Origin: Eubacterium sp.
GTDB lineage: Bacteria > Bacillota > Clostridia > Lachnospirales > Lachnospiraceae
Direction: 5' to 3'
DNA: 64,000 nucleotides
Assembly: GCA_024681515.1 (NCBI GenBank)
Contig: JAILAR010000004.1
Location: 17,089-81,088 of the forward strand
The notes under the pieces were generated by a model. It made no database searches, was not told where the DNA came from, and worked only from the letters and a program-made list of their open reading frames with translations. A program made the position numbers and the translations under genes. This document shows positions 6,871-63,380 of the stretch, piece by piece. The number at the start of each line of letters is the position of its first letter. The stretch's first letter is position 1.

Positions 6871-6915
6871 ATATTCGATACTTCGCACGCAAGCGTGCTC
6901 CGTATTTCATGCGCT
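6871..6915 (-). repeat. R1 repeat, 3' half, upstream of the PurF-like gene
   Basis: Carries the R1 hairpin in variant form, GCACGC-TT-GCGTGC, then GAAGTATCGAATA, directly before the ribosome site. Relative to other copies both sides of the stem have changed, keeping the pairing. Confidence 0.6.
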
Positions 6916-6975
6916 TACATTGCCAGCCATACACCTTACACTTGGTTATCAGTTTCGCGCTTCTGTTCAAATGAT

Positions 6976-7026
6976 AAAAATAACCGTCCGGCATATCGTC
7001 CTGCGGGCGCAATGCTGAACGGTTAT
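6976..7026 (-). terminator. Terminator after the tubulin-like gene
   Basis: Inverted arms around ATAACCGTTCAGCA and TGCCGGACGGTTAT followed by ATTTTTAT on the minus strand, about 80 nt after the stop codon. Confidence 0.7.
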
Positions 7027-7108
7027 CATTATGATGTATAAATTGCAAAATGTAAACCCGAAATTTTGACGCTTTGCAGCCAAAAAACTATGCACTTTTC
7101 ACATAGTT

Positions 7109-9601
7109 TCAGGCTCCGGTCTCATCCGTATGCAATCCGAAGAAGGTCCTCCTGTCGATGGCGTCGTAAGAATTCCTCAGTTCATCGATGCACTGCAGCT
7201 GTTCCTTCGGCACATTGACATACATATCTTCCATGGAGATCTCGGTCTCGCCGGCATTCAGGGTGATGGTCTCATCCAGCTCGTTGTACGGTTCCCGGAT
7301 CAGGATCTGACGAACCGCTTCCGAGAAATAAGGCATGTTCTTCGGCAGAGAAATGATCCTCTGCATCTCAAGGAACGAAAGTCCTTCCTTCTTCAGCTGG
7401 CAAAGCTGCTTCTTGGCGATCTTTTCGGTTGCTCCCTGAACAAAGGACTGGGCAGCCCGGCGCATGATATCCTCACGAACCTCATTTGCAGGGGATACGA
7501 ACATCATGTTCAGTTCCTGCAACGTGATGGGATTTGCCGAGAAGGCCGACGCGATCAGCTTCTCCGGTGCAAATCCGCCGATGCTGATCAGCAGGTTCCG
7601 GTAGATCTTCTCCATCTCCTGACGCACCGGAACGACTCTGCCGTTGTCGATATCCGCCTCATGGTTCATCATCATATTGATGAGGCTCTTTTTCATGTCC
7701 TCGATCTTCTCTTCCGTCACGTAGTCGGAAGGCAGATACTCATGCCGGACAGCATTTTTCATCATGTAGCTGATGACATTTTTACCGCTTAGCGCAAGAT
7801 CCTCTACGGAATTCCAGAGATCCTGGTCAAACCGTGAGAAAGTATCCACGATCTGCTCCGCACGATGACGCAGCATACGGACCACATCACCAAATACATC
7901 CTGATCATTCAGGCCTTCCCGGATTGCCTTCCGCTCTGTCTCCAGGATCTGTCTCGTGCATGCATCGTAATACCCCTTCTCCGTCTCACGTTTTGCGGAC
8001 GGGAATGCGAAGAACCTCTTGGACACGATCTGCAGGATGGAATCAATGATGCGCTGGTTTTCCCCGCTTTCCATGGGAGTGCGGCACATTTCTTCCAGCA
8101 CCTTTGCTTCCGCAACCATACCGGTATCCGCAGTCACGCCCTCGAACCCTGCTGCACCGATCATCTGAACGGTAATAAACGGTCCGTAGGTATGCAGATA
8201 CTCCTGAATATTTCTCTCCAGAGAGGACAGCATACTGTTCTTGATGGACTTGACGATCACCGGCACTTCACGCATGAAGTTATCCAGCTGCCGCGGCACG
8301 GAACCGCGGAACTCATCCTCGCCCTTCTTGATCTGCTTATAATTCGGCCGCTGGAAAGAAGCCACCTTGATCAGACCATTTGCCTGCAGGCGGATCTCAT
8401 CCCCCGGCGCACCTTCCAGAAACTCACGGATCTCACCGAAACTCTCCCGCATATCCGCCATCATCTTCCGGTCATCCTGAACCAATTCATGAAGACGCTT
8501 GTAAGCTTCTTTAAATACCTGGAACTCACAGATATTCTCGATCTCACGGATCGGGATCCGATAGTCGGATTCATTTAATACCTTAAACAGACGGGAACCT
8601 GCCTTATCAAAGAACGCATCCCTCATCAGCATTTCCGTTCCCTCTTCCCTGCGGCTGCCGACATACTTTACGCAGGTCAGCTTATACAGGAAATACGCGA
8701 TATCACTGTAGATCACATGCTCCGGAAGGTATCCCTGATCATCCTCTTTTCCGGATACCAGCATACAGGAGTCGAAGATATTCTCTTTCATGGAGAGACG
8801 ATGTGCACCGCTCTCAAACGTATAACTCTCTCCACGTTCCGTGAGAGTCATCAGGTTCTCCAGTTCCTTCAGCGTAGCAAATGCATTTGCCTCAAGCACG
8901 CTCCGCTTTCCCCAGTCCAGAGCCGCGTTTGCGAAGAGAACATCCGGTGTCAGAAGACATCCGCCGATCCGGAAATTATGCCAGTGCTTTGATCTCGCAT
9001 ACGCGCGGATATTGTAAGCCACATCTGCCAGGATACCGCTGCCGGTACCTCCGCCCAGGCCGCTGATGATCATAACATCCAGCTTTCCGCCCTGGGAACG
9101 ATTGTATACTTCATCCAGTTTCTCAAAAAGAAGGATCCGCATGTCCTCGTACGCATTCGAGAACATCAGACGACCGATCTGACGGTTTCCCCTCGCACCG
9201 TCTCTGCCGATTTGCATCGGTGGGAAATCCGGACGCATCCATTTGGCCAGTGTACTCTGTACCGGGCCTTCCGGCGTTCCGCTTTCCAGGATCGTTTCCA
9301 GATTCGGACGGTAGATACTGATCACCTCAAGAGCATTCAGGCCCACTCCTTCTCTGGAATCCTGGATCGTCGCTTCCATCTGCGGAATATCAGAATCGAT
9401 GAGAAGAAAATGGACATTATCCTCCTGTCGGATCTTGCCCTGCATCATCTTCTTATACGCGGTAACGCACTGCCGTCCAACCCCACCAAGTCCGATCAGA
9501 AGAAAATCCCCGTAAAACTGGTTTTCTTCCTCTGCCCTGTTCAGGATCCGGATCTGCCGTAACTTACTGAACTCTTCCTTTTGTGTATCAATCAGAATCA
9601 T
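7109..9601 (-). CDS. Tubulin-like GTPase (Tubulin_2 type), 830 aa
   Basis: Residues about 30-330 match the bacterial tubulin-like family: a Rossmann start DFLLIGLGGVGRQ, LLIDSDI, and the GTP-binding tubulin signature SGLGGGTGSG near residue 190, followed by LTPDV and LEANAFATLKELENLM. The remaining 450 residues are helical and charged with no domain I recognise. Proteins of this type are known from domain annotation but their role is poorly understood; they may polymerise and organise partner proteins. The start MILIDTQKEEF has TAGGAGAAG upstream. It appears monocistronic, between a terminator and tRNA-Trp, without the partner genes such proteins often have. Confidence 0.85.
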   Translation of the reverse strand: MILIDTQKEEFSKLRQIRILNRAEEENQFYGDFLLIGLGGVGRQCVTAYKKMMQGKIRQEDNVHFLLIDSDIPQMEATIQDSREGVGLNALEVISIYRPNLETILESGTPEGPVQSTLAKWMRPDFPPMQIGRDGARGNRQIGRLMFSNAYEDMRILLFEKLDEVYNRSQGGKLDVMIISGLGGGTGSGILADVAYNIRAYARSKHWHNFRIGGCLLTPDVLFANAALDWGKRSVLEANAFATLKELENLMTLTERGESYTFESGAHRLSMKENIFDSCMLVSGKEDDQGYLPEHVIYSDIAYFLYKLTCVKYVGSRREEGTEMLMRDAFFDKAGSRLFKVLNESDYRIPIREIENICEFQVFKEAYKRLHELVQDDRKMMADMRESFGEIREFLEGAPGDEIRLQANGLIKVASFQRPNYKQIKKGEDEFRGSVPRQLDNFMREVPVIVKSIKNSMLSSLERNIQEYLHTYGPFITVQMIGAAGFEGVTADTGMVAEAKVLEEMCRTPMESGENQRIIDSILQIVSKRFFAFPSAKRETEKGYYDACTRQILETERKAIREGLNDQDVFGDVVRMLRHRAEQIVDTFSRFDQDLWNSVEDLALSGKNVISYMMKNAVRHEYLPSDYVTEEKIEDMKKSLINMMMNHEADIDNGRVVPVRQEMEKIYRNLLISIGGFAPEKLIASAFSANPITLQELNMMFVSPANEVREDIMRRAAQSFVQGATEKIAKKQLCQLKKEGLSFLEMQRIISLPKNMPYFSEAVRQILIREPYNELDETITLNAGETEISMEDMYVNVPKEQLQCIDELRNSYDAIDRRTFFGLHTDETGA

Positions 9602-9803
9602 AATCTGTCTTCTCCTATAGTCTTCTCCGACAGAAGTATACCCCCTGCGCCATTCCTGCCGGAAAACAATATTTAGGGGTTTTCTCCCCTTTCCGCACCA
9701 TAGATAGCATGATTATAACACATTCTGTACAAATATACCATATTAAACTGTACATTTTATACGATTTATATAACACCAAAGTACGTATTACGGTTCCTAA
9801 AAC

Positions 9804-9846
9804 AAAAAAAATCCCCACAAACCCTTTTTTACAAGGATCTGTGGGG
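9804..9846 (-). terminator. Terminator after tRNA-Trp
   Basis: CCCCACAGATCC pairs with GGGTTTGTGGGG, followed by ATTTTTTTTG on the minus strand, immediately downstream of the tRNA. Confidence 0.9.
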
Positions 9847-9858
9847 TGTTTGATGAAG

Positions 9859-9929
9859 CAGGGGATGAGAGAATCGAACTCCCACCAAAGGTTTTGGAGA
9901 CCCCTATCATACCATTTGACCAATCCCCT
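9859..9929 (-). tRNA. tRNA-Trp (anticodon CCA)
   Basis: Cloverleaf on the minus strand: acceptor AGGGGAT pairs with ATCCCCT, discriminator G. The anticodon loop CTCCAAA gives anticodon CCA, and the GGTCTCCAAAACC block is typical of bacterial tRNA-Trp. The T arm is GGGAG-TTCGATT-CTCTC. The 3' CCA is not encoded. Confidence 0.95.
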
Positions 9930-9990
9930 ATGCCGCAGTCTCTCTCGACCACAACGCATAGTGTACATGAAAAGCATCCTTTTGTCAACA

Positions 9991-10050
9991 GAAAAAAAGA
10001 AAAGGACGGGCAGCTTTTTTGAGTTTTTTGAACTGTCCCGTCCTCTTCTT
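9991..10050 (-). terminator. Terminator after the GGGtGRT operon
   Basis: AGGACGGGACAG and CTGCCCGTCCT form the stem, followed by TTTCTTTTTTT on the minus strand, 30 nt after the stop codon. Confidence 0.85.
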
Positions 10051-10080
10051 ATTTATGAATTCGTAATTCAGAATTCAGAT

Positions 10081-11100
10081 CTAGAACTTGCCTGCCTTTG
10101 CAGCCTCTTCGATGGATACAGCGGTAGAAACCGTCATACCTACCATCGGGTTGTTACCTGCACCGATCAGACCCATCATCTCAACGTGAGCCGGAACGGA
10201 GGAGGAACCTGCAAACTGTGCATCGCTGTGCATACGGCCCATGGTATCGGTCATACCGTAGGAAGCCGGACCTGCAGCCATGTTATCCGGGTGAAGGGTA
10301 CGTCCTGTACCACCGCCGGAAGCTACGGAGAAGTACTTCTTACCTGCCTCTACGCGCTCCTTCTTGTAGGTACCTGCAACCGGATGCTGGAAACGTGTGG
10401 GGTTGGTGGAGTTACCTGTGATGGAGACATCAACATTCTCCTTCCACATGATGGCCACACCTTCCTGAACATCGTTTGCACCGTAGCAGTTAACCTTTGC
10501 ACGCGGAGACTCCGGATCCTTGGAGTAGCACTTGCGGAATACTTCCTCTACCTCACCTGTGAAGTAGTTGTACTTTGTCTCAACATAAGTGAAACCGTTG
10601 ATTCTGGAAATGATCTGTGCAGCGTCCTTACCCAGACCGTTCAGGATAACGCGGAGCGGTTTCTGACGAACCTTGTTTGCCTTCTCTGTGATACCGATCG
10701 CACCTTCAGCAGCTGCGAAAGACTCGTGACCAGCCAGGAATGCGAAGCATTCTGTGTCCTCTTCCAGAAGCATCTTGCCCAGGTTACCATGACCCAGACC
10801 TACCTTACGGCGGTCAGCTACGGAACCGGGGATGCAGAATGCCTGAAGGCCGATACCGATGGCTGCCGCTGCATCTGCCGCTCTCTTGCAGCCCTTCTTG
10901 ATAGCGATGGCAGCACCTACGGTGTATGCCCATTTTGCGTTCTCGAAGCAGATGGGCTGAATACCCTCGATCAGATGATAAACATCGATGCCTGCTGCAT
11001 CTGTGATCTCTTTACACTCCTCGATGGAGTTGATCCCATACTCCTTTAATGCTGCAAGGATCTGGGGCTCTCTTCTCTCATAAGATTCAAATAATGCCAT
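10081..11100 (-). CDS. GGGtGRT protein (function unknown)
   Basis: A 339-residue soluble protein of the family named for its SGGGTGRTLHP motif, seen here near residue 285. Conserved blocks include FAFLAGHESFAAAEGAIG and SITGNSTNPTRFQHP. No catalytic role is established to my knowledge. It is transcribed 18 nt after the stop of an iron-sulfur scaffold-like gene, with a good site upstream (CGAGGATTAG region), so the two form an operon ended by the terminator at 9991-10050. The pairing suggests a role involving Fe-S chemistry, which is inference. Confidence 0.9.
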   Translation of the reverse strand: MALFESYERREPQILAALKEYGINSIEECKEITDAAGIDVYHLIEGIQPICFENAKWAYTVGAAIAIKKGCKRAADAAAAIGIGLQAFCIPGSVADRRKVGLGHGNLGKMLLEEDTECFAFLAGHESFAAAEGAIGITEKANKVRQKPLRVILNGLGKDAAQIISRINGFTYVETKYNYFTGEVEEVFRKCYSKDPESPRAKVNCYGANDVQEGVAIMWKENVDVSITGNSTNPTRFQHPVAGTYKKERVEAGKKYFSVASGGGTGRTLHPDNMAAGPASYGMTDTMGRMHSDAQFAGSSSVPAHVEMMGLIGAGNNPMVGMTVSTAVSIEEAAKAGKF

Positions 11101-11118
11101 TTTCTAATCCTCGCTTTC

Positions 11119-11811: not shown

Positions 11812-11932
11812 ATGGTCCTCCTTTATGTTTTGTTTGGGCATACGCCCACTAACTTATAGTTTATTCGTTCCCGACGTATTTCGCAAGAAAAATTTGATAA
11901 AAAATTTGATAATTCATGCGTTTTCACACCAC

Positions 11933-13246: not shown

Positions 13247-13331
13247 CAAAATATCCTCCGGTGATAAACAGGAGCGAAGAACCCGGCCTTCCAGATCAGC
13301 CCAAACGATTCATCGCTCCCATAGATAATCC

Positions 13332-14896: not shown

Positions 14897-14920
14897 TATT
14901 CCATACTTCGCGCCTACGCC
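14897..14920 (-). repeat. R1 repeat, 3' end fragment, upstream of the GH26-like gene
   Basis: Contains GTAGGCGCGAAGTATGGAATA followed by AAGGAG; only the 3' arm of the hairpin and the tail are present. Confidence 0.5.
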
Positions 14921-14991: not shown

Positions 14992-15042
14992 TTGATGATA
15001 CGGTCACATTGCACACGAAGTTTGCGTGCTGCGTATCATCAA
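14992..15042. repeat. Divergent R3-like hairpin
   Basis: Perfect 11-bp arms TTGATGATACG / CGTATCATCAA enclose CACATTGCACACG...TGCGTGCTGCG, the same core as the R3 elements at 29314 and 59426. It fills the gap between the DUF3737 and GH26-like genes. Confidence 0.6.
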
Positions 15043-15063
15043 CCGGAGGCCAAAGGTCGCAAA

Positions 15064-26006: not shown

Positions 26007-26110
26007 TATTCCATACTGCGCGCCTAAAGCGCTCCGTGGATTATCATTTCGCACGTATTTGCATATAATTTGCTTTACATTCCCTGTTCGAGTACGTGCT
26101 CCATGATAAT
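26007..26110 (-). repeat. R1 repeat, copy C
   Basis: Near-complete R1: 5' arm ATTATCATGGAGCACG, then GTAAAGCAAAT, the inner arm ACGTGCGAAATGATAAT, the hairpin GCGCTTTAGGCGC, the tail CAGTATGGAATA and directly the ribosome site of the giant secreted protein. Confidence 0.8.
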
Positions 26111-26250
26111 CAGTCCATATACTCCCTTTCACGCAACTATCAAGATATTGTAAATTATACTACAATCCTGCCTTTTTTACAATGAAACCTGTAAACATTT
26201 TCATTTTGCATACAACGTTACACACGTGAATCCATACAGAAATTAACCAC

Positions 26251-28999: not shown

Positions 29000-29316
29000 T
29001 CAGGGACAGCAGCGTTTCATAAAGCGCTTCCGGATGATCCGATACTCAACATAATCCAGATTATCCTCATTGTGAAGGATCTGTGTCTGGATCGATTCCG
29101 AGATCGCCTGATAATCTTCCGGATGCAGCATCCCCCGAAACGTAAAACCGGTCAGTGCCTTAAAATCTTCCAGATCATCACATCCGAAAATGTCAAACAC
29201 CGCATGGTTCGCATAGATCAGTTCCTCCGGTGCTTCCGCCTTATAAATGAAGAACCCGCCGGGCATATGCCTGCCGAGTTCCTCCACTACCGGCATCGTC
29301 TGTTCATTTAATGATG
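29000..29316 (-). pseudogene. PAS-domain fragment of a lost sensor protein
   Basis: About 90 residues match the start of a PAS sensor: MPGGFFIYKAE, ELIYANHAVFDIFGC and GMLHPEDYQAI. Homology ends at RIIRK, after which the frame stops within eight codons; a neighbouring frame reads ALYETLLSLMG and a stop, perhaps the original C-terminus. The 5' side is replaced by an R3 repeat (29314-29400). No ribosome site fits. It is probably what remains of a PAS-GGDEF or PAS-kinase gene. Confidence 0.65.
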
Positions 29317-29400
29317 CTGGGGTCAAAAGGTATTTTGCCCCCAGCTGATGATTCGCAGCACGCACACTACGTGTGCAATGTGCTGCTAAAACACTCACGG
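29314..29400 (-). repeat. R3 element, partial copy
   Basis: GGGTCAAAAGGTATTTTGC, CAGCTGATGATTCGCAGCAC and the hairpin GCACACTACGTGTGC match the inverted sequence of the full element at 59426-59609. Only one terminus, GGGTCAAAAGG, is kept. It directly adjoins the PAS fragment. Confidence 0.8.
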
Positions 29401-29780: not shown

Positions 29781-29858
29781 ATAATACTTCTCCTTATAAA
29801 TAACACTACGTGTTTCCGTGTGTATACCGGTCGTTTCCGGTGCTCCTTTACTTCGCAC

Positions 29859-33707: not shown

Positions 33708-33718
33708 TGTTTTGTCTC

Positions 33719-33832
33719 CTATTCCATACTTCGCGCCTTCCGGCGCTCCGTTACGAATCATTTCGCGCGTATATTCCGATCACTCACTTTATCCTTCGTT
33801 CTTTAGTCCGCGCTCCATGATTCGTCATAACG
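33719..33832 (-). repeat. R1 repeat, copy D
   Basis: Complete copy between the kinase and araD. The outer arms are ACGAATCATGGAGCGCG and CGCGCGAAATGATTCGT, differing from copy C on both sides so that the pairing is kept. The hairpin is GCGCC-GGAA-GGCGC, then GAAGTATGGAATA and the araD ribosome site. Confidence 0.85.
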
Positions 33833-42980: not shown

Positions 42981-43085
42981 CTATTCCACACTTCGCGCCT
43001 TCCGGCGCTCCGTGATTCATCATGTCGCACATATTAATCGTTTATCCGCTTTACGTTTTTGTTCGAGTCCGTGCTCCATGATTCT
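42981..43085 (-). repeat. R1 repeat, copy E
   Basis: Complete copy inside the exporter operon: AATCATGGAGCACGGACT, CGTAAAGCGGATAAACG, GTGCGACATGAT, the hairpin GCGCC-GGAA-GGCGC and GAAGTGTGGAATA before AGGAGG. Confidence 0.85.
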
Positions 43086-43101
43086 TGTTCAACACTTCGT
43101 G

Positions 43102-51692: not shown

Positions 51693-51790
51693 TCTGCCTT
51701 ATGAGTCGGCCAGGGAAGCCGACTCATAACCCTCACTTCGTTCGGGCATCACCTTCGGTGATGGGCGCATACGCTTCTCATTCCGCCTGA
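51693..51790 (-). repeat. R2 repeat upstream of ppk1
   Basis: Two hairpins: ATCACC-GAA-GGTGAT and the 11-bp perfect stem TATGAGTCGGC / GCCGACTCATA (51700-51728), joined by GTGAGGGT. Immediately after comes the ppk ribosome site. The second copy is at 58557-58634. Confidence 0.8.
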
Positions 51791-51805: not shown

Positions 51806-51829
51806 TATTCCATACTTCGCGCTTCCGAA
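51806..51829 (-). repeat. R1 repeat, 3' end fragment, upstream of ppk1
   Basis: TTCGGAAGCGCGAAGTATGG followed by AATAG matches the R1 tail; the 5' part is missing. Lies between the promoter and R2. Confidence 0.6.
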
Positions 51830-51940: not shown

Positions 51941-51947
51941 TGTAAGT

Positions 51948-54788
51948 TTATTCTTCGGTTGTGATTCCTTCTGTCTTGATGATGTATTTTACGCTGCTCT
52001 TCATGTCGCTGTTTGCACCGCCGAAGGAGCTGTAAGCAACACCGGCTTTCCGGATATCTTCCAGATTGTTCTTGAAATCATCCAGTTTCACTTCACCCTT
52101 ATCGATCGCATCGATGAGCTGGTCTGTGGCATCCTTCAGCTGATTTGCACCGGACTGAAGCTTGCCGCTGTTAGCGGAAAGCTGATCCGCGCCGGCCTGC
52201 AGCTGTGCAGTACCGTTGGAAAGCTGATTTGCTCCTCTGGACAGCTGACCTGTACCGTCTGCCAGACTGCTCATACCCTGATTCAGCTGACCGGTACCCT
52301 GTTCCAGTGCACCAAGTCCCTGATCCAGCTGTGTTGTTCCGTTGGACAATGATCCGAGACCTTCATCCAGCTGACCTGCGCCATCCTGCAGATCACCCAG
52401 CCCCTTTGCGAGTTGACCGGTTCCGGTCTGAAGATCACCCAGACCGCTTGCCAGCCGGCCGCTTCCATTCGACAGATCACCCAGGCCCTTTGCAAGCTGA
52501 CCGCTTCCTGTTTCCAGATCATCCATGCCCTTTGCAAGCTGTCCGGAGCCGCTTGCCAGCTGCTTTGTTGCATCCTTTAACTGCTTGATCTTCGGTTCAA
52601 AGGCTGCAAGCTTGTCATCCACTGCCTCGAGAACCGCATCCATACCATAATTCAGACCTGCCATCGCATAAGCTTCGCACATGGACTTGAGAAGCGGTAC
52701 CACGCCTTCCCCAAGTTTCCGGGACATGGTAGATGTAAATGCGCTGAACTCCTGCGCCAGTTTTCCGTACTCGGTTCCGTAGCCTGTTCCGTAACCTGTA
52801 CCATAGCCCGTACCATAGCCAAGGCCGTAGCCTTCACCGTAACCGGTTCCGTAGCCTGCCGTATATGCACCTGCAAGTGCCTGTCCGAGTCCCACCATCT
52901 GCTGATCCACCGCCGCTTCCACCTGTGCGGAAACCGCCTGTCTGAACTGCGCCAGCATTTCAGGAGTCAGATCCTCGTAATTGAGATCTGCCGTTGCCGG
53001 ATTCTGCTTCATAGCCGCTTTAATAGCTGTTACATATGCCTGCTCCTGAATAGAGGAGCGAACCGTGTTGTAGATCTGCTGATAGTTGGCATTGCCGGTG
53101 ATCTTGGTCGGATCCGTCTGCAATGCCCCTGCTGCTTCCTGTGCCTTGGTTGCTGCATCTGTTGCAATACTCTGTTTCAGTTCATCCGTTACCGATGCCT
53201 GACCGGCTGCAACCGCTTCCTGCTGAATAATGGCTGCCTGCTGCTCTGTCGTCAGGGTCGGATCTGCCAGTTTTCCGAAGGAAGGAGCTGCGCTCAAAGA
53301 ATCCGTTACACCCTTGGTCATGGCACCGGATACCGCATCCGCCGTATATCCCTGCGCTTCCACGGTCTGCTGAATGCTTGCCGCCGCTGCCGCACGTTGC
53401 TCATCCGTCACATTATCCTTTGCACCGTCAAGGCTCGGCAGTGTCAGATCCTTAACTGCATTATTCAGCTGACCTGCACCGTCTGCCAGTTTGTCAGCAC
53501 CTTCATTTGCGCTCTTGGTTCCGCCGTACAGCTTGTCTGCGCCATCCTTCGCACTCTTTGCGCCGACTGCCAGCTGATCTGCGCCTTCCTTTGCACTCTT
53601 TGTTCCGGCTGCGATCTGATCTGCACCTTCCTTTGCGCTCTTTGCGCCGGCTGCCAGCTGATCCGCACCTTCCTTTGCACTCTTTGCACCGTCAGCCAGC
53701 TGATCCGCACCGTCTTTTGCACTCTTAATTCCGCTGTAAATCTGGGATGCTCCGGCCTGTGCACTCCTTGCCCCGTCATTCAGCTTTGCCGCACCGCTTG
53801 CCAGATCGGATGCACCGGCATTCACCTGACCGATACCACCTGCCAGCTGATCCACGCCATTGGTATAAGCGGAGATTCCTTCTGCCAGCTGGGTCATACC
53901 ATCCTGGTACTGTGCACTCTTATCATTGAGTTCTTTCTTCAGTTCATCGAGGTTCAGATCGATGGCATCCTCTGCGAGGACGATGGGTGTTGCAAAGGTC
54001 AGCGCCATATCCATCTGGAAATCGGATGCATCCGCCTCGAACTCCACATAATCCGGGAAATTGATGCCTTCAATATCCATGTTCAGGCTGTCGTTCATAC
54101 CCGGCATACCCACACCGATCACGATGAACCGGCTGCCGTCGCCGATCACCTTACCGTTCGTCACCTTGACATTGGAGAATTTATCGCCGTCCAGCAGAAC
54201 ACCCGTACCCATCAGGAACGGAGCATATACTTCTCCCACCTTTGCGTTGTTGATGTAATCAAAACGGACCGTTACCTTTCCGGACACGCCCGCCAGCGTA
54301 CTCGGATCCGCATCTTCTCCGTTCAGTTTATAGCTGACCTTTACACCCACCGGAAGTTCCTGAGTGGTCTTGCCCTGATAATAGATGGGCTTGCCATTTG
54401 CCTGCCAGGTGATCTCTTCACCGTTTTGCGTAAATGTCTCGTCACCCTTGACATTTTCAATATCCGTCAGGATACTGCGGTCCTTGATTTCCTCCGCACC
54501 ATCGCTGTTCTTCAGCCATTCGCTGACGATCACGGAATTCACATTTCCGTTCACATCCGCCATAGCATAAACTGTCTCGTCCTTCTCCCCTTCCATGACC
54601 CCGTCCAGGTTGAAGGACGCATCGATCAGGTCACCGAGCTTGATTTCTTCCTCTGTCGGTGTCTCTGCCGGCTGGGCAACCGTAGCTGCATCCGGCTTTT
54701 TCTCCTCCGCTCCGCAGCCTGCCAGACCCAGCAGCATGGTTCCTGCCATGATTCCGGCCACGATACGTTTCGTAAGATTCTTCTTCAT
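51948..54788 (-). CDS. Heptad-repeat lipoprotein partner of the MMPL transporter
   Basis: A 946-residue protein with a lipobox LLGLAGC (Cys25). Residues about 30-320 form a beta-rich domain; two long regions of seven-residue repeats of the type xxQLxxG follow (about 325-445 and 745-915), like the YhgE/Pip coiled-coil family. Between them lie an Ala-rich helical part and a run of GYGxGYG repeats (about 655-685). It probably spans the cell envelope as a rod and works with the MMPL protein upstream. The start follows AAAGGGGAC. R1 copy F lies before it. Its repetitive DNA could give assembly errors, but the frame is intact. Confidence 0.85.
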   Translation of the reverse strand: MKKNLTKRIVAGIMAGTMLLGLAGCGAEEKKPDAATVAQPAETPTEEEIKLGDLIDASFNLDGVMEGEKDETVYAMADVNGNVNSVIVSEWLKNSDGAEEIKDRSILTDIENVKGDETFTQNGEEITWQANGKPIYYQGKTTQELPVGVKVSYKLNGEDADPSTLAGVSGKVTVRFDYINNAKVGEVYAPFLMGTGVLLDGDKFSNVKVTNGKVIGDGSRFIVIGVGMPGMNDSLNMDIEGINFPDYVEFEADASDFQMDMALTFATPIVLAEDAIDLNLDELKKELNDKSAQYQDGMTQLAEGISAYTNGVDQLAGGIGQVNAGASDLASGAAKLNDGARSAQAGASQIYSGIKSAKDGADQLADGAKSAKEGADQLAAGAKSAKEGADQIAAGTKSAKEGADQLAVGAKSAKDGADKLYGGTKSANEGADKLADGAGQLNNAVKDLTLPSLDGAKDNVTDEQRAAAAASIQQTVEAQGYTADAVSGAMTKGVTDSLSAAPSFGKLADPTLTTEQQAAIIQQEAVAAGQASVTDELKQSIATDAATKAQEAAGALQTDPTKITGNANYQQIYNTVRSSIQEQAYVTAIKAAMKQNPATADLNYEDLTPEMLAQFRQAVSAQVEAAVDQQMVGLGQALAGAYTAGYGTGYGEGYGLGYGTGYGTGYGTGYGTEYGKLAQEFSAFTSTMSRKLGEGVVPLLKSMCEAYAMAGLNYGMDAVLEAVDDKLAAFEPKIKQLKDATKQLASGSGQLAKGMDDLETGSGQLAKGLGDLSNGSGRLASGLGDLQTGTGQLAKGLGDLQDGAGQLDEGLGSLSNGTTQLDQGLGALEQGTGQLNQGMSSLADGTGQLSRGANQLSNGTAQLQAGADQLSANSGKLQSGANQLKDATDQLIDAIDKGEVKLDDFKNNLEDIRKAGVAYSSFGGANSDMKSSVKYIIKTEGITTEE

Positions 54789-54802: not shown

Positions 54803-54902
54803 CTATTCCACACTTCGCGCCTTTCGGCGCTCCGTAAGATTATCACTCCGCACGTATTTGTCGTTTATTTGCTTTACAACATCATTCCAGTGCGTGCTCT
54901 GT
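54803..54902 (-). repeat. R1 repeat, copy F, overlapping the MMPL stop codon
   Basis: GAGCACGCACTGGAATGATG, GTAAAGCAAATAAACG, ACGTGCGGAGTGATAATC, the hairpin GCGCC-GAAA-GGCGC and GAAGTGTGGAATA. The first 20 nt encode the last residues (HALE) and stop of the MMPL gene. Confidence 0.85.
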
Positions 54903-56975
54903 TTTATGAAGCACACCTTTGAAGCCCATGCTCGTACGCAGGATCACCGGATCAAATACCCGGAGCACTGCCGGCAGCAGCAGAATTACGACAAACATAC
55001 TGATGATCGCGCCCTTGGCCAGAAGACCGCAGAGGGAGCTGATCATATCGATATTCGAGTAAAGTCCTACACCGATGGTTGCCGCGAAGAAGCTGAGTGC
55101 GCTGACGATGATGGAGTGGATCGAGTTCTCCAACGCTGAAGTTACAGCTTCGATCTTCTCCAGACCCGAGAGCCTTGCCTGCTTGTACTTCGTGGTCATC
55201 AGGATCGCGTAATCCACGGTGGATCCCAGCTGGATCGTTCCGATGACGATGGATGCCACGAAAGGAAGCACCGTTCCCATGTAGTACGGGATACCCATAT
55301 TAATGAAGATCGCAAATTCGATCACGGCTACCAGCAGGATCGGAAGCGTTATGGACCGGAATACCACAAGGATGATCACACCGACCATCAGGATCGATAC
55401 CAGATTGACTACCTTGAAGTCATGATCCGTGATCTTGATCAGATCCTCGGTACAGGGCGCCTCACCGATCAGCATGCCCTTGGTATCGTATTTGTCCAGG
55501 ATCTCGTTGATCTTGTCACACTGCGCATTTACCTCATCCGTTGCGACCTTGTACTCTGAAAGAATAAAGATCAGCTGATACTCTCCGTTGTCCAAAATAC
55601 TGATCAGGTTCTTTGGAAGCATATCCCTCGGGAACAGCGGTCCCAGCAGAGAGTCCAGTCCGACGGCGGCTTTCACACCGTCCACCTTGTCGATTTCCTC
55701 CACAAACTTGTTCACCGATTTTGAGTCGACCTTGCTGTCCATCAGGATCAGATGTGTGGAGCTCATGTTAAACTTCTCATCCAGCTTCGCGGCTGCCACC
55801 ATACTGGACAGATCCTGCGGAAGCGTGGAATCCAGATTATAGTATACTTCATTATGTGACTGTCCGTAATATGCGGGAACGATCAGAACCGCAAAGATGA
55901 TCAGTCCGATATAGAAATGTTTTACCAGCCATTTGCAGAGTCCCGAGAGATTCGGGATCAGCGGCTTATGCTTTGTCTTTTCCACTGCCTTATCAAATAC
56001 CATGATCATGGACGGCAGTATGGTCACACAACAGATAACGCCGATGACAACACCCTTTGCCATGACCAGACCCATATCGAAGCCCATGGTGAAGCTCATG
56101 AACATCAGCGCCACGAAACCGGCCACCGTTGTGATGGAACTTCCGACTACGGAAGTAAGGGTCTCATTGATGGCATTGGCCATCGCCAGCTTGTTGTCTC
56201 CGTGACTGACCTCTTTCTCTGCGGAATAACTGTGCCACAGGAAGATGGAGTAATCCATGGTGACTGCAAGCTGCAGCACGGCCGCCAATGCCTTGGTCAC
56301 GTATGAGATCTCTCCCTGAATGAAGTTACTTCCCAGATTATAGATCACGGCAAAGCCGATACTGAGAAGGAACAGGAACGGGATCAGGAAGGAATTCATG
56401 GTGGTCATAAGCACGATCAGACTGAGGGTAACTGCGATAACAACGTAGATCGGGACCTCCTTATCCGACAGATCCTTGGTGTCCACGATCATGGCGGACA
56501 TACCGCTGATGTAGGTCTGTTCCGATGCCACCTCCCGAAGATCCGCTATGGCCTTCATGGTCTCATCCGAAGACATTGTGGTGTCGAAGATGGCAATCAT
56601 CAATCTCGCATCACCGTTCTTCAGCATCTTTCCGTACTTGGACGGAAGCAGTTCCTCCGGAATGGAAATATCCATCAGGGATCCGTACCAGATCACCTTT
56701 CTTACATGGGGCACCTCTTCCATCCGTTGGGCCATTACCTTGATATCCTTCTCGTTCATACCCTCCACAACGACCATGGAGAAAGCGCCGGTCCCGAAAT
56801 CATTTGCCAGAATTTCCTGGCCCTTCATGGTTTCGATCTCCTTCGGCAGGTATGTCAGGATATCGTAGTTCGTTCGGGTTGAAAAGTATCCGATGGCTGA
56901 CGGTATGATCAGGATCACCGCCAGGATCAGGATTGGGATCCGCAGCCGAACGACTGCTTTTCCTAAACCTTTCAT
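54882..56975 (-). CDS. MMPL/RND-family transporter
   Basis: A 697-residue membrane protein with the RND layout: one helix at the start (IPILILAVILIIPSAIGYF), an outer domain, a five-helix block with SSITTVAGFVALMFMSFTMGFD, a second outer domain and a second block ending near LLLPAVLRVF. It may export lipids, drugs or wall material, or act as a patch or secretion scaffold with the following lipoprotein. The start follows GGAGGTG. TetR (57143) is upstream and inverted repeats lie in the gap. Confidence 0.9.
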   Translation of the reverse strand: MKGLGKAVVRLRIPILILAVILIIPSAIGYFSTRTNYDILTYLPKEIETMKGQEILANDFGTGAFSMVVVEGMNEKDIKVMAQRMEEVPHVRKVIWYGSLMDISIPEELLPSKYGKMLKNGDARLMIAIFDTTMSSDETMKAIADLREVASEQTYISGMSAMIVDTKDLSDKEVPIYVVIAVTLSLIVLMTTMNSFLIPFLFLLSIGFAVIYNLGSNFIQGEISYVTKALAAVLQLAVTMDYSIFLWHSYSAEKEVSHGDNKLAMANAINETLTSVVGSSITTVAGFVALMFMSFTMGFDMGLVMAKGVVIGVICCVTILPSMIMVFDKAVEKTKHKPLIPNLSGLCKWLVKHFYIGLIIFAVLIVPAYYGQSHNEVYYNLDSTLPQDLSSMVAAAKLDEKFNMSSTHLILMDSKVDSKSVNKFVEEIDKVDGVKAAVGLDSLLGPLFPRDMLPKNLISILDNGEYQLIFILSEYKVATDEVNAQCDKINEILDKYDTKGMLIGEAPCTEDLIKITDHDFKVVNLVSILMVGVIILVVFRSITLPILLVAVIEFAIFINMGIPYYMGTVLPFVASIVIGTIQLGSTVDYAILMTTKYKQARLSGLEKIEAVTSALENSIHSIIVSALSFFAATIGVGLYSNIDMISSLCGLLAKGAIISMFVVILLLPAVLRVFDPVILRTSMGFKGVLHKTEHALE

Positions 56976-57059: not shown

Positions 57060-57142
57060 AAGGTGGTATGTTTCATTAGACATTTATAGAGATTTGACAA
57101 AGATTTTTCAATTTTATGGACATATTGATCTGATCAACCGTT

Positions 57143-57751: not shown

Positions 57752-57848
57752 TTTTCAGTCTCCGCAATTATAATGTGTTCAGTGATGTATTTAGTAATGT
57801 ATTCAGTGATTCATCCAGTCCACCCGGATGCCATTAAAAATATGTATT

Positions 57849-57873
57849 ATTCTATCGAAAAATATGATAGAAT
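57849..57873. promoter_or_regulatory. Inverted repeat in the TetR-LemA gap
   Basis: ATTCTATC (57849-57856) and GATAGAAT (57866-57873) are perfect arms with a 9-nt spacer, about 100 bp before the TetR start and 130 bp before LemA. A TetR operator is a reasonable guess. Nothing else is evident in this 248-bp gap. Confidence 0.45.
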
Positions 57874-57999
57874 TCAAGGTGTGCGGCAGAAAATCGATTG
57901 ATAAATAAGATCAAAAAACCGTATCACGGTACATATGAAGAAAATGATTACCATTCAGGCGGCACTCCCTGCCGCCGAACAGAAAGGAGACCCTGCGCT

Positions 58000-58548: not shown

Positions 58549-58556
58549 GAATACCG

Positions 58557-58634
58557 TGCCATCACCGAAGGTGATCCATAAGCGGAATGAGGGTTATGAT
58601 CCGGCTTCCTTGGCCGGCTCATAAGGAAGAGAGG
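58557..58634 (+). repeat. R2 repeat upstream of the response regulator
   Basis: CATCACC-GAA-GGTGAT, then GAATGAGGGTTATGA and the hairpin TATGATCCGGC / GCCGGCTCATA (58595-58623), followed by the ribosome site. Compared with the ppk copy a T-A pair has become C-G, so the stem is conserved. Confidence 0.8.
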
Positions 58635-58641
58635 ATGCATT

Positions 58642-59319
58642 ATGAGAATTCTGGTTGTGGAAGATGAAAAGCGATTGGCAGAGACCATCGCAGATATCAT
58701 AGAAGAAGCCGGTGATACGGTGGACATTCAGAACAACGGAGAAGACGGCTACTACGATGCTTCCTCCGGGATCTATGATGCCATCGTTCTGGACGTGATG
58801 CTCCCGGGCATGAACGGATTTGACATCCTGAAACAGCTGCGTGAGGAAGGAATCTCCACTCCCGTGCTGATGCTGACTGCGCGCACGGAACTGGGCGACC
58901 GGGTACAGGGTCTGAACCTTGGTGCAGACTACTATCTCACAAAGCCCTTTGAAAATGCAGAGCTGGTTGCCACTCTGCATGCCATCATGCGTCGGAAATC
59001 CGATTATGTCCCGGAGAATGTGACCTTCGGTGACCTGGTTCTCTCTCCGTCCTCCTGCGAACTATCCTGCGGTGCCAAATCCATTAAACTGAACGCCAAA
59101 GAATTCGAGCTGATGCGCTACCTGATGATCAACGGTAAAAACATCCTGTCGAAGGAAACCCTGATCAACAAGATCTGGGGCTACGACTCCGATGCGGGCG
59201 ATAACAACGTGGAAGCATATATCTCTTTCCTGCGCAGAAAGCTTGCTTCGCTGAAATCCAATGTATCGATCCAGGTTGTTCGGAAGGTCGGATATCATCT
59301 TTCCGACGGAACCAACTAA
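58642..59319 (+). CDS. OmpR-family response regulator
   Basis: A 225-residue regulator: receiver domain 1-118 (VEDEK acidic pocket, phospho-Asp51 in LDVMLPG, LTARTE and Lys in TKPFENAE) and a winged-helix DNA-binding domain (LNAKEFELMRYLM, KIWGYDSDAGDNNVEAYISF in part). A complete two-component regulator without a kinase next to it; the nearest kinase is at 47949-49514. The start follows AGAGAGG after R2. Confidence 0.95.
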   Translation: MRILVVEDEKRLAETIADIIEEAGDTVDIQNNGEDGYYDASSGIYDAIVLDVMLPGMNGFDILKQLREEGISTPVLMLTARTELGDRVQGLNLGADYYLTKPFENAELVATLHAIMRRKSDYVPENVTFGDLVLSPSSCELSCGAKSIKLNAKEFELMRYLMINGKNILSKETLINKIWGYDSDAGDNNVEAYISFLRRKLASLKSNVSIQVVRKVGYHLSDGTN

Positions 59320-59425
59320 GTTCCCCACCGGTTATCACATTTACGATAAAACCAACCGGTCCTCTTCCGGATCCATCATGCAGAGCGACATTGATCAAGC
59401 TGAAAAACCATGTAATATGATGATA

Positions 59426-59609
59426 GGGTCAAAAGGTCCAAGCGATGCGCTTGCGCGGTCGCTTGAGACCTTAATTGACCCGCAAAACACGAACGGCGTA
59501 GTCATTTTGCACAGCAAAATGACGAGAGCCGTGAGTGTTTTAGCAGCACATTGCACACGTAGTGTGCGTGCTGCGAATCATCAGCTGGGAGCAAAATACC
59601 TTTTGACCC
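59426..59609. repeat. R3 element, full copy, MITE-like
   Basis: 184 bp bounded by GGGTCAAAAGGT and ACCTTTTGACCC as terminal inverted repeats. Inside, GGGTCAAAAGGTC / GACCTTAATTGACCC and AAGCGA / TCGCTT fold the left part, and GCAGCAC...GCACAC-GTA-GTGTGC...GTGCTGC forms a strong hairpin on the right. No coding capacity. A non-autonomous mobile element or a conserved RNA are both possible. Confidence 0.75.
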
Positions 59610-59686
59610 CAGCATCAAAATATGCATGATAAAAAACATCGGGGAAAGAAAAAAGAATAAGTGATGTGATATAGGGGGAAAACTAA

Positions 59687-62074
59687 ATGGAGCATTCAAT
59701 TAAATCAACCATACCAACCATTGAAACCATAGAAACAATTCAATCAGGTTCTTTTGATTTCAATGATCCGAAGATCAAGACGGCCTACGCATTAAATTTA
59801 TGTACGGTGTCTGTATCACAGATCATCGATTACCATGATATCGTGATCCTGGAACAGGAATATGATGCGATCCTGAACAATCTGAATATTGAAAAGATGC
59901 CTAAGGATGAGGCATTATTGAACATTCTGAAACAGCTTCTGGATACGATCAATTCCTTCCGTATGCAGGAGGATGATCGAAAATTCATCGACCGGGAATA
60001 TCAGAACAAGATGAAGACTGCCATTTGGAGTGCGATTCCCGGAATCGGTATTTTTGTGGAAGGCCATCCGGTTTCTCTTGTAATGTCACCGGCTTCGCAG
60101 GTCGGTATCGGATATATGAATTATCGAAAGCAGAAAGCGGAGAATTCATTTGCATATGAGATGGAAAGATGGCAGTTGCATCGGGATGCGATCGAACGGT
60201 TTAATAAACTCCGCAGAGAACTATTCAGTTCGGCGTGGCGTTTGGTGGATGCCCATGACATTCCGGATGCGTATCGTCTGACAGAGCGCCAGATCACACA
60301 GTACAATGAGATCCTTATGGATCCGGACGATTATCGAAAGTATGAACGTTTGGATTCAATCAAAGAACAGTTTATCGCGTATCCCCCGTTTTGGTATTTC
60401 TTCGGGAATACAGCCAATCAGTTATGGAGAGTGACAGAAGGAGAGCTTTCAGATTATTATTTTGCGGCCGCAAAGTGTTATTTTGAGATATTCGTTCGCT
60501 CCTTTAAGGCCTGTGATCTACTCAGAGAGAATCTGGTGGCATCTTCCTGTGCGCTTGAGTATATTGATCTGCTGCGTGTGGACGTGCCGGAAGAAAAGGC
60601 GAAGATCAGTGAGCTGCTTCAATTTACGCTGGATCATTCCGGAAATGCCAATGATGTCCTGCAGCTGACGGCATTTTCATATCTGAAGATCGGTGACGGA
60701 AAAAGTGCCGCCAAACTGTTTCGTCGTCTGGTCAATGAAGGTTATAATGCAGTGATCAATGCACAGCTTCTCAGCAGATATTATGTCGGTGCATTTATAT
60801 CCGGGGATTCTTCCGCTGTTGCAGGATATCGTTATTTAGAGAAAAGGATGAATAAACGGTACCTTTATCCGCTCCCAGACCAGAAGTTGCTTGGGGCAGA
60901 CAATTATGAAGTGATCGAAGACCTTCAGAAGAGATTTCTTGCAAATCAAAAAGAGATCCTGACTCATAAGTTTGCGCTTGTGATCGACAGGTTCCAGAAG
61001 AAGTATGAGATCCTGTTCAATAAATGTATTCCGGTTCCGGAAGATAAGAAATATACCGATAATTATTTTGACGGGACAGTGAATTCTTTGGCGATTCGTA
61101 AGGAAGACGGAAATGAACTTCGAAACCGTAAGTCTTTGGTGGCTTATATTGAGGTACTGCAGGATTGCAATTATCCGTACAATTACCTGACGGTTTTGAA
61201 TGATATGCTGAGTGGGTCATATCAGTTGAATTCCGTTCAGGGACACGAGAACGAGTTGCTGAAAGTTCTCAGCGAGGCAGTGATCAAGCAACGTCAGAAA
61301 CTGCTTGAGTTTCATCGATTGATTGAAAACGATGATGTTACGTTTGAGACGTACAATAAAATGCTGGCGGTTTCTTTTGACGACCTTACGAAATCGTTTT
61401 TTGACAGGATCATAGATTATACGGCGGATTATATTGCCGGAAAAAAAGATATAGTTGCAATGAATGAAGGGGAATCCAATCTTCGGGAATTCTGCATTCA
61501 GCAAGGGTTTGATACACCGGAAATGTTGTATGAGACTGCGGATGATCTGGTGGATGTACCGGAACTGAAGAAACAATATCTTGGGTTTGAACTGATTGAT
61601 GAAGGAGCTACGACAGCATTTACGGATGACCGATATGATGAGATCGGACGAAAGCTGTCCCCGTTCAGAGAGCTACTGACAAAAGAAGATGCCGGGCTGT
61701 TCTTCCTGATGAAGGATCAGCAGGATTTTGAAAAGTATTTTACGCAAAAGATCTATGGTGTGGACCGTCATAAACTGCAGCGTAAGACGGTGGCTGTTCT
61801 GGATGATCGAAATGATTCAGATAGCGACCTCCTTTTCACCACGGACGGAATCGTTCAGATCGTAAAAGAAAAATATAAGGAACCGATGCCGTATGACGAT
61901 ATTCAGGTTCTTCCGGAGAATGCCGGCCTTATGATCCATCAGGAGTATGATAATCAGGAGATCAATATGCAAAGTCTTCTCAATGCGGTCAAGTCACTCC
62001 GAAAGGATCCTGTCATGAAGGTTTATGAGAGCAAGAATCCGGTGGACTTTATCTTCGGGTTCTTCAAAAAGTAA
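59687..62074 (+). CDS. Uncharacterised 795-aa protein
   Basis: I do not recognise this protein. It is soluble except for a hydrophobic patch (AIWSAIPGIGIFVEGHPVSLVMSP, about 113-136, given here in part: GIGIFVEGHP). Much is helical, with TPR-like pairs around residues 290-390 (LLQFTLDHSGNANDVLQLTA in that region). The C-terminal 80 residues (QVLPENAGLMIHQEYD and IFGFFKK at the end) form a separate block. Base use is more AT-rich than in neighbouring genes, which fits transfer. It is preceded by the R3 element and a GGGGGAAAA site. It may be part of an accessory island; no function is assigned. Confidence 0.75.
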   Translation: MEHSIKSTIPTIETIETIQSGSFDFNDPKIKTAYALNLCTVSVSQIIDYHDIVILEQEYDAILNNLNIEKMPKDEALLNILKQLLDTINSFRMQEDDRKFIDREYQNKMKTAIWSAIPGIGIFVEGHPVSLVMSPASQVGIGYMNYRKQKAENSFAYEMERWQLHRDAIERFNKLRRELFSSAWRLVDAHDIPDAYRLTERQITQYNEILMDPDDYRKYERLDSIKEQFIAYPPFWYFFGNTANQLWRVTEGELSDYYFAAAKCYFEIFVRSFKACDLLRENLVASSCALEYIDLLRVDVPEEKAKISELLQFTLDHSGNANDVLQLTAFSYLKIGDGKSAAKLFRRLVNEGYNAVINAQLLSRYYVGAFISGDSSAVAGYRYLEKRMNKRYLYPLPDQKLLGADNYEVIEDLQKRFLANQKEILTHKFALVIDRFQKKYEILFNKCIPVPEDKKYTDNYFDGTVNSLAIRKEDGNELRNRKSLVAYIEVLQDCNYPYNYLTVLNDMLSGSYQLNSVQGHENELLKVLSEAVIKQRQKLLEFHRLIENDDVTFETYNKMLAVSFDDLTKSFFDRIIDYTADYIAGKKDIVAMNEGESNLREFCIQQGFDTPEMLYETADDLVDVPELKKQYLGFELIDEGATTAFTDDRYDEIGRKLSPFRELLTKEDAGLFFLMKDQQDFEKYFTQKIYGVDRHKLQRKTVAVLDDRNDSDSDLLFTTDGIVQIVKEKYKEPMPYDDIQVLPENAGLMIHQEYDNQEINMQSLLNAVKSLRKDPVMKVYESKNPVDFIFGFFKK

Positions 62075-62128
62075 GTATTTTCGATATATCGAAATTGTGA
62101 AAAAAATAGTGTGAAGGTGAACTGTATA

Positions 62129-63133
62129 ATGAATAACATAAACGTAAAAATAATCGATGAACCGGATGAGAAGTCCCGGATTGCCCGGGAGGTTCTGGAA
62201 AATCTGATGGAATGGTTTGAGGTAGAGGAATCCAGGGAAGGATATATCCGCGACTGTCGGGAATGGACGTTTTTCGCGGCGGAGCAGGATGGGAAAACCG
62301 CCGGATTCCTGTGCCTGAAGGAGACCGGAAATGCGACGGTTGAGCTGGCGGTCATGGGTGTCCGGAAAGATATTCACCGCGGTGGCATCGGCCGCGCGTT
62401 GTTTGAGACGGCGAAGGAATATGCGTCTCATGCGGGATATGAATTTATGCAGGTGAAGACCGTACAGATGGGCTGTTACGAGGATTACGATCAGACGAAT
62501 CGGTTCTATATCGGTGTAGGATTTAAGGAACTGGAAGTGTTCCCGTTGCTGTGGGATGAAGCAAATCCGTGTCAGATCTATGTGATGAGTCTGAAGGAGC
62601 AGAATATGCTTCAGTTGATGAAGGAGCGTCGGAGTTACCGTGGACCCTATAAGCCCGACAAGGTTCCTCATGAGGATCTGGCAGCGATCCTGCAGGCCGG
62701 TCTGGCCGCGCCTTCCGGCTGCAACAGGCAGACCACAAGCCTTATCGCGGTGGATGATGAGGAACTTCTGGCGAAGCTCCGTGCTGAGATCGAACCTCCC
62801 ATCGCTGAAACAGCGCCGGCCATGATCTGTGTTCTGACACAGAGCGTGAATGCTTATCGAGATCGTTGCTACGCCGTGCAGGATTACTCTGCGGCCATTG
62901 AGAATATGCTGCTTGCTATCACGGCTCTGGGTTATCAGAGTTGCTGGTACGAAGGGCACATCACGGATGATGACCGGATCGGAGATCGGCTGGCGAAGAT
63001 CCTGGGTGTGCCGGAGGAATATGAACTGGTATGTGTTCTGCCCGTGGGCGTGGCAGAAGAAGAACCGACCGCACCGAAGAAAAAAGAATTTGAAGAACGG
63101 GCATGGTTCAACGGGTTTCGAGTTAGAGGATAA
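62129..63133 (+). CDS. GNAT acetyltransferase fused to a nitroreductase domain
   Basis: A 334-residue two-domain protein. Residues 1 to about 160 are GNAT-like: ELAVMGVRKDIHRGGIGRAL holds the acetyl-CoA loop R-x-x-G-x-G. Residues 165-334 are a nitroreductase fold: MLQLMKERRSYRGPYKP, AAPSGCNRQTTSLI (flavin-binding) and AAIENMLLAITALGYQSCWY. The ATG at 62129 is nine bases after GAAGGTG; a GTG at 62111 is an alternative. The fusion is seen directly in one frame; joint function is unknown. A truncated nitroreductase follows. Confidence 0.85.
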   Translation: MNNINVKIIDEPDEKSRIAREVLENLMEWFEVEESREGYIRDCREWTFFAAEQDGKTAGFLCLKETGNATVELAVMGVRKDIHRGGIGRALFETAKEYASHAGYEFMQVKTVQMGCYEDYDQTNRFYIGVGFKELEVFPLLWDEANPCQIYVMSLKEQNMLQLMKERRSYRGPYKPDKVPHEDLAAILQAGLAAPSGCNRQTTSLIAVDDEELLAKLRAEIEPPIAETAPAMICVLTQSVNAYRDRCYAVQDYSAAIENMLLAITALGYQSCWYEGHITDDDRIGDRLAKILGVPEEYELVCVLPVGVAEEEPTAPKKKEFEERAWFNGFRVRG

Positions 63134-63145
63134 AACGAGGTTCGT

Positions 63146-63275
63146 ATGGATATAAAGAAAGCAATCAAAGAACGCCACAGTGTGCGGAGTTTCAAGGCCC
63201 TTCTCGAAGGTGGATCTCGGGATCGTGAAGTATCATTTTGAAGCGGTTACAGGGAGAAGCGTGAAGACAGAATAA
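63146..63275 (+). pseudogene. Nitroreductase remnant (both ends only)
   Basis: MDIKKAIKERHSVRSFK is a typical nitroreductase start. After a break at about 63200 the other frame reads VDLGIVKYHFE...GRSVKTE and a stop, the usual end of such enzymes. The whole centre is missing. Starts 12 bp after the GNAT-nitroreductase gene and ends in R1 copy H. Confidence 0.7.
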
Positions 63276-63380
63276 TCAGAACGGAGCACGGACTAGAAAC
63301 AGAAAAGTAAAGCAAATAAATGCCCAATACGTGCGAAGTGATGATCTTACGGAGCGCGAAAGCGCGAAGTATGGAATAGT
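63271..63380 (+). repeat. R1 repeat, copy H
   Basis: Complete copy on the plus strand: AACGGAGCACGGACT, GTAAAGCAAATAAATG, ATACGTGCGAAGTGATGATC, the hairpin GCGC-GAAA-GCGC and GAAGTATGGAATA, then the ribosome site of the next gene. Confidence 0.85.

Follow-up and report, generated by a model that had tools for sequence, protein, structure and literature searches.

R1, a dispersed two-hairpin element in gene sense that reaches the ribosome sites of many unrelated genes in a Eubacterium genome

Why should much the same hairpin-forming sequence recur in front of unrelated genes, and what might it do there? The question is raised by a 64-kb stretch of DNA from a Eubacterium sp. of the family Lachnospiraceae (hereafter the window; G000:C34:17089-81088, where G000 is the genome of the source organism), in which the original prediction had described a repeated hairpin leader, R1, and had taken it for a mobile leader with RNA structure rather than a regulon element. 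Our analysis revealed that R1 is a dispersed two-hairpin element of 103-106 nt (~105 bases), whose diverged copies, full or shortened, are mostly oriented in the sense of the gene behind them and occupy the stretch up to its Shine-Dalgarno (SD) site, and whose stems show covariation with wobble pairs on the mRNA strand. No description of R1 was found in the open-licence papers searched.

A dispersed element in gene sense that ends at the SD site

The frequency of R1 is far above chance, as had been claimed: its tail, GNGCGAAGTRTGGAATA, occurs 223 times with up to two mismatches in the 3.13-Mb draft genome, whereas the reversed pattern occurs once. A covariance model built from 21 full copies gave at least 146 genome matches at E<=0.1, a lower bound because 150 of 1230 first-look candidates were scored. 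The fetched stretches (~400 kb, comprising the window and 3-kb loci that were chosen because hits lay there) contain 182 distinct model matches, 98 of at least 98 nt, termed full, and 84 partial; the 182 tail hits discussed below are a separate count, equal by coincidence. Unless stated otherwise, position statistics refer to the 98 full copies and structure statistics to 97 distinct full copies. A simple rule based on open reading frames (ORFs) and SD sites, with no gene finder, served to call gene starts and stops.

With regard to position, a start codon with an SD site lies within 60 nt downstream on the same strand in 71 of the 98 full and 59 of the 84 partial copies, and in the opposite direction in one and two copies, respectively. 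The claim that copies face the gene behind them therefore holds genome-wide (71:1 and 59:2) as well as for eight copies of the window. A clear SD site and a start no more than 32 nt away follow 90 of the 182 copies; in these, the distance from R1 to the SD hexamer is 0 in 44, -1 in 12 and +1 in 8, so that 64 of 90 fall within one base. When the full copies are sorted by what follows them, 72 have a start and SD within 40 nt, 10 have another unit next, 12 have a start at 41-200 nt and 4 have neither. The last two groups consist in part of genes missed by the ORF/SD rule, such as that of ribosomal protein L36 at L050, and in part of weak copies with a misplaced model 3' end; L035 and L123, judged by eye, run into terminator-like hairpins. 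The 182 tail hits divide similarly into 133 near a start, 29 before another R1 unit and 20 with neither.

The 5' end of R1 is also placed with respect to genes. In 31 of 98 full copies, an open frame upstream on the same strand has its stop codon close to this end, no more than 5 nt ahead of it or 14 nt within the element (the nearest stop being taken where several fitted); an even spread of the 85 stops across the 290 nt covered would place about 6 there. By eye, several copies open with the stop triplet itself. Many copies stand between co-directional genes: in 85 of 98 full copies, a long open frame on the same strand stops at -250 to +40 nt. The downstream genes are diverse: ten of ten that were checked belong to ten different families, namely TrmB, AICAR formyltransferase, MetK, RecG, aspartate kinase, DeoB, Tgt, type III pantothenate kinase, HisD and ribosomal protein L36.

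Both hairpins of the consensus follow a common plan, an outer stem, GGA opposite GAA and an inner stem GCRC/GYGC. Hairpin 1 has an outer stem, the GGA/GAA purine internal loop, an inner stem GCRCG/CGYGC and a loop of ~40 nt with conserved GGACT and GTAAAGC motifs, for which no pairing partner was found. Hairpin 2 reads ACGGA-stem-GAAGT and is followed by the tail TGGAAT. GGA opposite GAA is known to form a stable run of sheared G-A pairs.

In a MAFFT alignment of 21 sequences, 90.5% of cells pair and two-sided changes occur in 10 of 20 pairs; the covariation score was reached by 0 of 500 shuffles, the structure having been chosen on the same sequences. When the 97 full copies were aligned to the model, the pair with the highest mutual information, 85-89, and some others were columns of the length-variable hairpin-2 loop and not base pairs; the next-highest covarying pairs (5-70, 10-65, 74-99, 16-59, 9-66, 4-71, 83-90, 82-91 and others) lie in the four helices. 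In a fresh MAFFT alignment that was not fitted to the model, the nine top-ranking covarying places are taken by pairs of these helices. The gene-sense strand has 105 G-U and 42 A-C pairs, a ratio of 2.5 that compares with at most 1.6 in 1000 shuffles. R1 thus combines covariation with strand-specific wobble pairs, as a structured RNA does. The paired stem changes named in the original prediction are present in the window copies, and such changes recur genome-wide. Nearest-neighbour identity is 61% in variable and 90% in conserved columns of diverged copies, the columns having been picked on the same data.

Two other origins of this sequence were considered and rejected. Similar peptides can be seen by eye in places, but a coding origin was dismissed on inspection, because the hairpin lengths differ by 1-2 nt among copies and this breaks any frame. 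A tRNA-like reading of GGACTCGAAC failed because the segment is variable.

The following R1 copies and parts of copies were located in the window:

26008-26112, minus strand: full copy (E<=3.5e-21), before a gene of 1378 aa
33721-33826, minus strand: full copy (E 8.7e-24), called the 33719 copy below
33753..33825, minus strand: hairpin 1 of the 33719 copy, with outer stem ACGAATCAT/ATGATTCGT, GGA/GAA internal loop, inner stem GCGCG/CGCGC and ~40-nt loop
33726..33752, minus strand: hairpin 2 of the 33719 copy, AC-GGA-GCGCC-GGAA-GGCGC-GAA-GT, with covarying pairs 74-99, 82-91 and 83-90
33721..33728, minus strand: conserved tail of the 33719 copy, TATGGAAT, directly followed by the SD site AGGAGA (33715-33720)
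42983-43087, minus strand: full copy (E<=3.5e-21), with an FtsX-like permease gene upstream and an ABC ATPase gene downstream, both on the same strand
54805-54910, minus strand: full copy (E<=3.5e-21), before a gene of 946 aa
63273-63377, plus strand: full copy (E<=3.5e-21), the sole plus-strand R1 copy found in the window
6873-6973, minus strand: variant copy (E 5.5e-8), before a gene with a glutamine amidotransferase domain
14897-14913, minus strand: tail only, an exact 17-mer (full-model E 0.13), then an SD site and, at 12 nt, ATG
51806-51822, minus strand: tail only, an exact 17-mer (model E 0.075), then module R2 and the polyphosphate kinase gene

The five near-complete copies of the original prediction are thus recovered (each E<=3.5e-21), although they match the model by construction, because all five are among the 21 sequences used to build it. 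The partial copies fared unevenly. The variant at 6871, which is not among the model sequences, has a different 5' domain, the same hairpin 2 and a near-identical tail. At 14897 and 51806, little of R1 is present beyond the exact 17-nt tail GCGCGAAGTATGGAATA, and at 29850, where only GTGCGAAGTA stands beside AAGGAGCACC, there is no model match and no copy was counted. All eight remaining copies face the following gene, and in seven of them the SD site is ~20 nt or less from the tail. The exception is the copy at 51806, where the hairpin module R2 lies between the R1 tail and the SD site of the polyphosphate kinase gene. The 33719 copy has a carbohydrate kinase gene on one side and a class II aldolase gene on the other.

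Distribution among relatives and spread of R1

Across 61 genomes of the genus, tails with at most one mismatch number 170 in G000, 9 in G019, 4 in G017, 3 in G036, 2 in G002 and 0-1 in the others; three of the four single hits in these remaining genomes are one homologous stretch that lacks the hairpin and is likely coding. The model found matches in four other genomes, all of the same genus, among 116 relatives, and none in 396 other family genomes, under stricter filters and with few candidates per genome (33 for the 116 relatives, 9 for the 396), so that weak copies can be missed. No R1 match was found among phages, plasmids and viral contigs.

Two loci illustrate how R1 sites differ from those of relatives. 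In G000, R1 stands upstream of trmB and of the AICAR formyltransferase (purH-type) gene, whereas the model did not find it at either gene in the 29 other genomes fetched per gene; one weak match (E 0.039) in a relative's locus lies downstream of the gene. At the purH-type locus of many relatives, the upstream gene ends in NKNQ codons, mostly followed by a short spacer and the SD site. In G000, the upstream gene continues into R1, where its stop codon lies, and R1 extends to the SD site. At trmB, judged by eye, R1 lies between the SD site and upstream promoter-like boxes that are common to several relatives. Further copies of trmB and of the purH-type gene on G000:C180 and G000:C93 (87% and 93% protein identity, respectively) are without R1; because these second copies lie on other contigs, part of the G000 assembly may come from a related organism. 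A different repeat of ~170 nt, with inverted segments by eye, occupies the purH-type leader at L238, L247 and L248 (G005, G034 and G049).

Other comparisons bear on the history of individual copies. Within the same flank, G000 has one 105-nt unit more than G019, with tail repeats at its borders, and one R1 site is common to G000 and the more distant G002 (83% DNA identity). The 33719 copy and G000:C44:2118 share 105 of 106 bases before two unrelated genes, from just outside the 5' stem through AGGAGA, and L175 carries one identical tandem pair. The mean pairwise identity of R1 copies is 63%, and the copies appear to be old. In G019, L072 and L074 contain tandem arrays of hairpin 2 and tail alone, with periods of 33 nt and 37 nt, the second of which stands shortly before an SD site.

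The signatures of known mobile elements were sought in the 98 full copies and their flanks. Terminal inverted repeats were not found (of 14 end bases 3.20 match, a value that shuffled pairing gives as well), nor were target-site duplications (direct repeats average 1.96 nt, and 1.92 nt when the flanks are shuffled). Like miniature inverted-repeat transposable elements (MITEs), R1 is short, has many dispersed copies and is missing at the same site in relatives. Y1 transposase is represented by one contig-end fragment in G000 and was not found in G019, G017 or G036, which are draft assemblies in which a gene may be missing; G002 has 11 matches yet only 2 R1 tails. Mobilisation of the IS200/REP type (REP/RAYT, or PATE-like elements derived from IS200/IS605) was rejected, as Y1 matches do not track R1 abundance and the wobble pairs are asymmetric between strands. 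A GGAA-like target at the 5' flank was likewise rejected: 7 of the 77 copies outside tandems have it, compared with 4.7% of background windows, and tandem units (18 of 21) account for most of the excess. The proposed mobility of R1 is supported as history by the well over 100 dispersed copies, relatives without R1 at the trmB and purH-type genes, the pair alike in 105 of 106 bases and the tandem duplications; as to mechanism, neither a mobilising enzyme nor inverted ends nor target duplications were found.

Cis-acting leader, selfish repeat or shared control element

Our preferred reading, to which we give about even weight, is that R1 forms a two-hairpin leader which is predicted to be part of the transcript and likely acts in cis as a folded RNA, setting the stability or translation of the next gene, after having been copied into the stretch from the stop codon or the 5' untranslated region (UTR) to the SD site of many unrelated genes. 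R1 would be transcribed with the gene behind it, as the promoter-like boxes upstream of the trmB copy suggest. It may then act on mRNA lifetime or on initiation, most simply by protecting the leader with a hairpin at the 5' end, and it could have spread by insertion or by gene conversion that replaced the spacer. The original view of R1 as a leader with RNA structure agrees with its sense orientation, its position against the SD site, the covariation, the G-U excess on the sense strand and the trmB position behind promoter-like boxes. A role of R1 as terminator, promoter or simple SD-masking switch is unlikely, because there is no U-run behind its hairpins, no promoter signal above shuffled sequence (best -35/-10 score 7.57 of 12 against 7.56; 97 copies) and no anti-SD segment in its consensus.

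Several observations weigh against this cis-acting reading. The fold has no predicted direct effect on the SD site, whose computed unpaired probability is 0.636 with native and 0.631 with shuffled R1 (49 copies). The tail is not significantly better kept next to an SD site (exact in 78 of 133) than before another unit (13 of 29; p=0.22), which speaks against SD-specific selection on the tail. The short helix 74-76/97-99 shows the reverse of the overall wobble bias, with 13 A-C and 6 G-U pairs. The conservation of the R1 core, kept in 74 of 97 copies with a nearest neighbour less than 85% identical, is partly ascertained, because copies were found by similarity. Finally, expansion in one species with few or no copies in relatives is also seen in parasitic repeats. 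SD insulation was considered as well, given that 23 ordinary window genes have a lower SD accessibility (0.40, p=0.00016), but it was rejected because their composition differs and shuffled R1 leaders score as high.

The flat SD-accessibility result and the statistically equal tail conservation off SD sites make a purely selfish small interspersed repeat a serious rival, though one we consider distinctly less probable than a cis-acting leader. Its integration would favour the SD hexamer, a preference that would account for both position and orientation, and its hairpins would serve its own copying, with no role for the host. The concentration of tails in one species, against 0-9 in 60 other genus members, and the lack of a match in the other genera searched are consistent with such a repeat, as is the near-identical dispersed pair, whose likeness begins just outside the 5' stem and runs through AGGAGA. 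The distribution of R1 is also the pattern reported for the pneumococcal repeats BOX, RUP and SPRITE in the excerpted text of PMC3049150. In contrast, the lack of terminal inverted repeats and target duplications, the poor fit of the Y1 transposase matches and the G-U excess on the gene-sense strand argue against it, and so does the core kept in diverged copies. That pair is moreover the single near-identical dispersed pair among 98 full copies, and there is therefore no sign of a recent burst.

A regulon element, in which each R1 would be bound by some unknown protein, small RNA or metabolite with joint control over the whole set of R1 genes, appears unlikely to us. The conservation of GGACT and GTAAAGC in the hairpin-1 loop, beyond the needs of a plain stem, and the narrow range of distances to the SD site would suit it, but the downstream genes serve unrelated processes, the consensus has no anti-SD segment and R1 was not found in the other genera searched. 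No Rfam match was obtained at R1, either over the whole window at gathering thresholds or at six loci at E<=1. The GGA motifs also suggested a CsrA target, which was rejected because CsrA (PF02599) was not found in G000, a 97% complete draft; it is present in 1 of 61 genus genomes. The original exclusion of a regulon is thus only partly borne out: the diversity of the genes and the failure to find CsrA agree with it, while an unknown trans factor or ligand remains compatible with the sequence. We regard as very improbable that R1 is an intercistronic processing site, at which a double-strand RNase cuts the hairpins and splits operon mRNAs just upstream of each SD site. The GGA/GAA internal loops break the helices, the inner stems of 4-5 bp would be short for RNase III, and the trmB copy lies in a 5' UTR behind promoter-like boxes. 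What speaks for processing is the number of copies between co-directional genes (85 of 98 with a same-strand upstream stop) and the reported ability of ERIC and Correia repeats to direct RNase cleavage (excerpts of PMC3049150 and PMC10969869).

Comparison with known systems revealed partial likenesses. REP/BIME elements with RAYT transposases are also short dispersed hairpins, but Y1 matches do not track R1 abundance, and the wobble excess of R1 is seen on the mRNA strand. Inverted ends, a feature of RUP and BOX, are lacking in R1; MITEs as a rule carry such ends with direct repeats beside them, whereas R1 has neither and adjoins the SD site in one orientation. The Neisseria element CREN carries its own promoter and ribosome site, while the promoter score of R1 is no better than shuffled and R1 often lies between co-directional genes. 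Riboswitches and T-box leaders in Rfam resemble R1 in their conserved loop motifs and covarying stems before genes, but R1 has no Rfam match and no visible expression platform, and well over 100 copies precede unrelated genes in one species.

The published descriptions, as far as their excerpts go, add further parallels. BOX, RUP and SPRITE are, like R1, small structured interspersed repeats with many copies per genome, mainly in one species; their authors judged them parasitic and found them sparse in relatives and over-represented between convergent genes, unlike the sense-oriented R1 that ends at SD sites, and some were shown to be transcribed, BOX being made of sub-units (PMC3049150). The MITEs ERIC and Correia (CREE) resemble R1 as repeats of ~100-200 nt with up to hundreds of copies and a number that varies between related taxa, and they can alter mRNA processing (PMC10969869). 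The Neisseria REP2/CREN is likewise a repeated leader (150 bp) before genes of one genus, and CREN has been tied to contact-dependent induction (PMC9031163). A survey of 40 genomes described 92 stem-loop families, 41 of them intergenic (PMC2267715). In the excerpts of this literature, none of the compared repeats shows the SD contact and orientation of R1.

A bolder reading, which we put forward tentatively and consider rather doubtful, is an SD-seeking mobile RNA leader. It would insert copies of itself between stop codon and SD site, nearly always in mRNA sense, could supply the upstream gene with its stop codon and would by now serve many housekeeping genes of one lineage as their common leader. 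Bacterial genomes often harbour structured interspersed repeats, whose function, if any, is a matter of dispute. With its one orientation, its end at the ribosome site and its many unrelated genes, R1 would make the rewiring of translation or mRNA decay across a genome by a repeat directly testable. If insertion itself were aimed at SD sites, this would be a targeting rule that is not known from any other element; the open-licence papers searched yielded none with such insertion.

Other repeats and features nearby

R2 is a second modular hairpin leader (GGTTATGAGCCGGCTTCC.TGGCCGGCTCATAAGGC) that can stand directly before an SD site or an R1 unit. Six copies were recognised among seven pattern hits in the fetched stretches, two of them in the window and the others at L016, L104, L123 and L133. 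A third repeat family (GATGATTCGCAGCACGC...) has two copies that are 84% alike, with inverted segments by eye. The window also contains a T-box leader and, inside the 946-aa gene that has its own R1 leader, 42-nt tandem repeats:

51696-51731, minus strand: R2 copy
58592-58627, plus strand: R2 copy
15005-15054, minus strand: third repeat family
~29310-29400, plus strand: third repeat family
59547-59596, minus strand: third repeat family
1845-2150, minus strand: T-box leader (Rfam RF00230, 94.7 bits)
52354-52563 and 53479-53814: 42-nt tandem repeats

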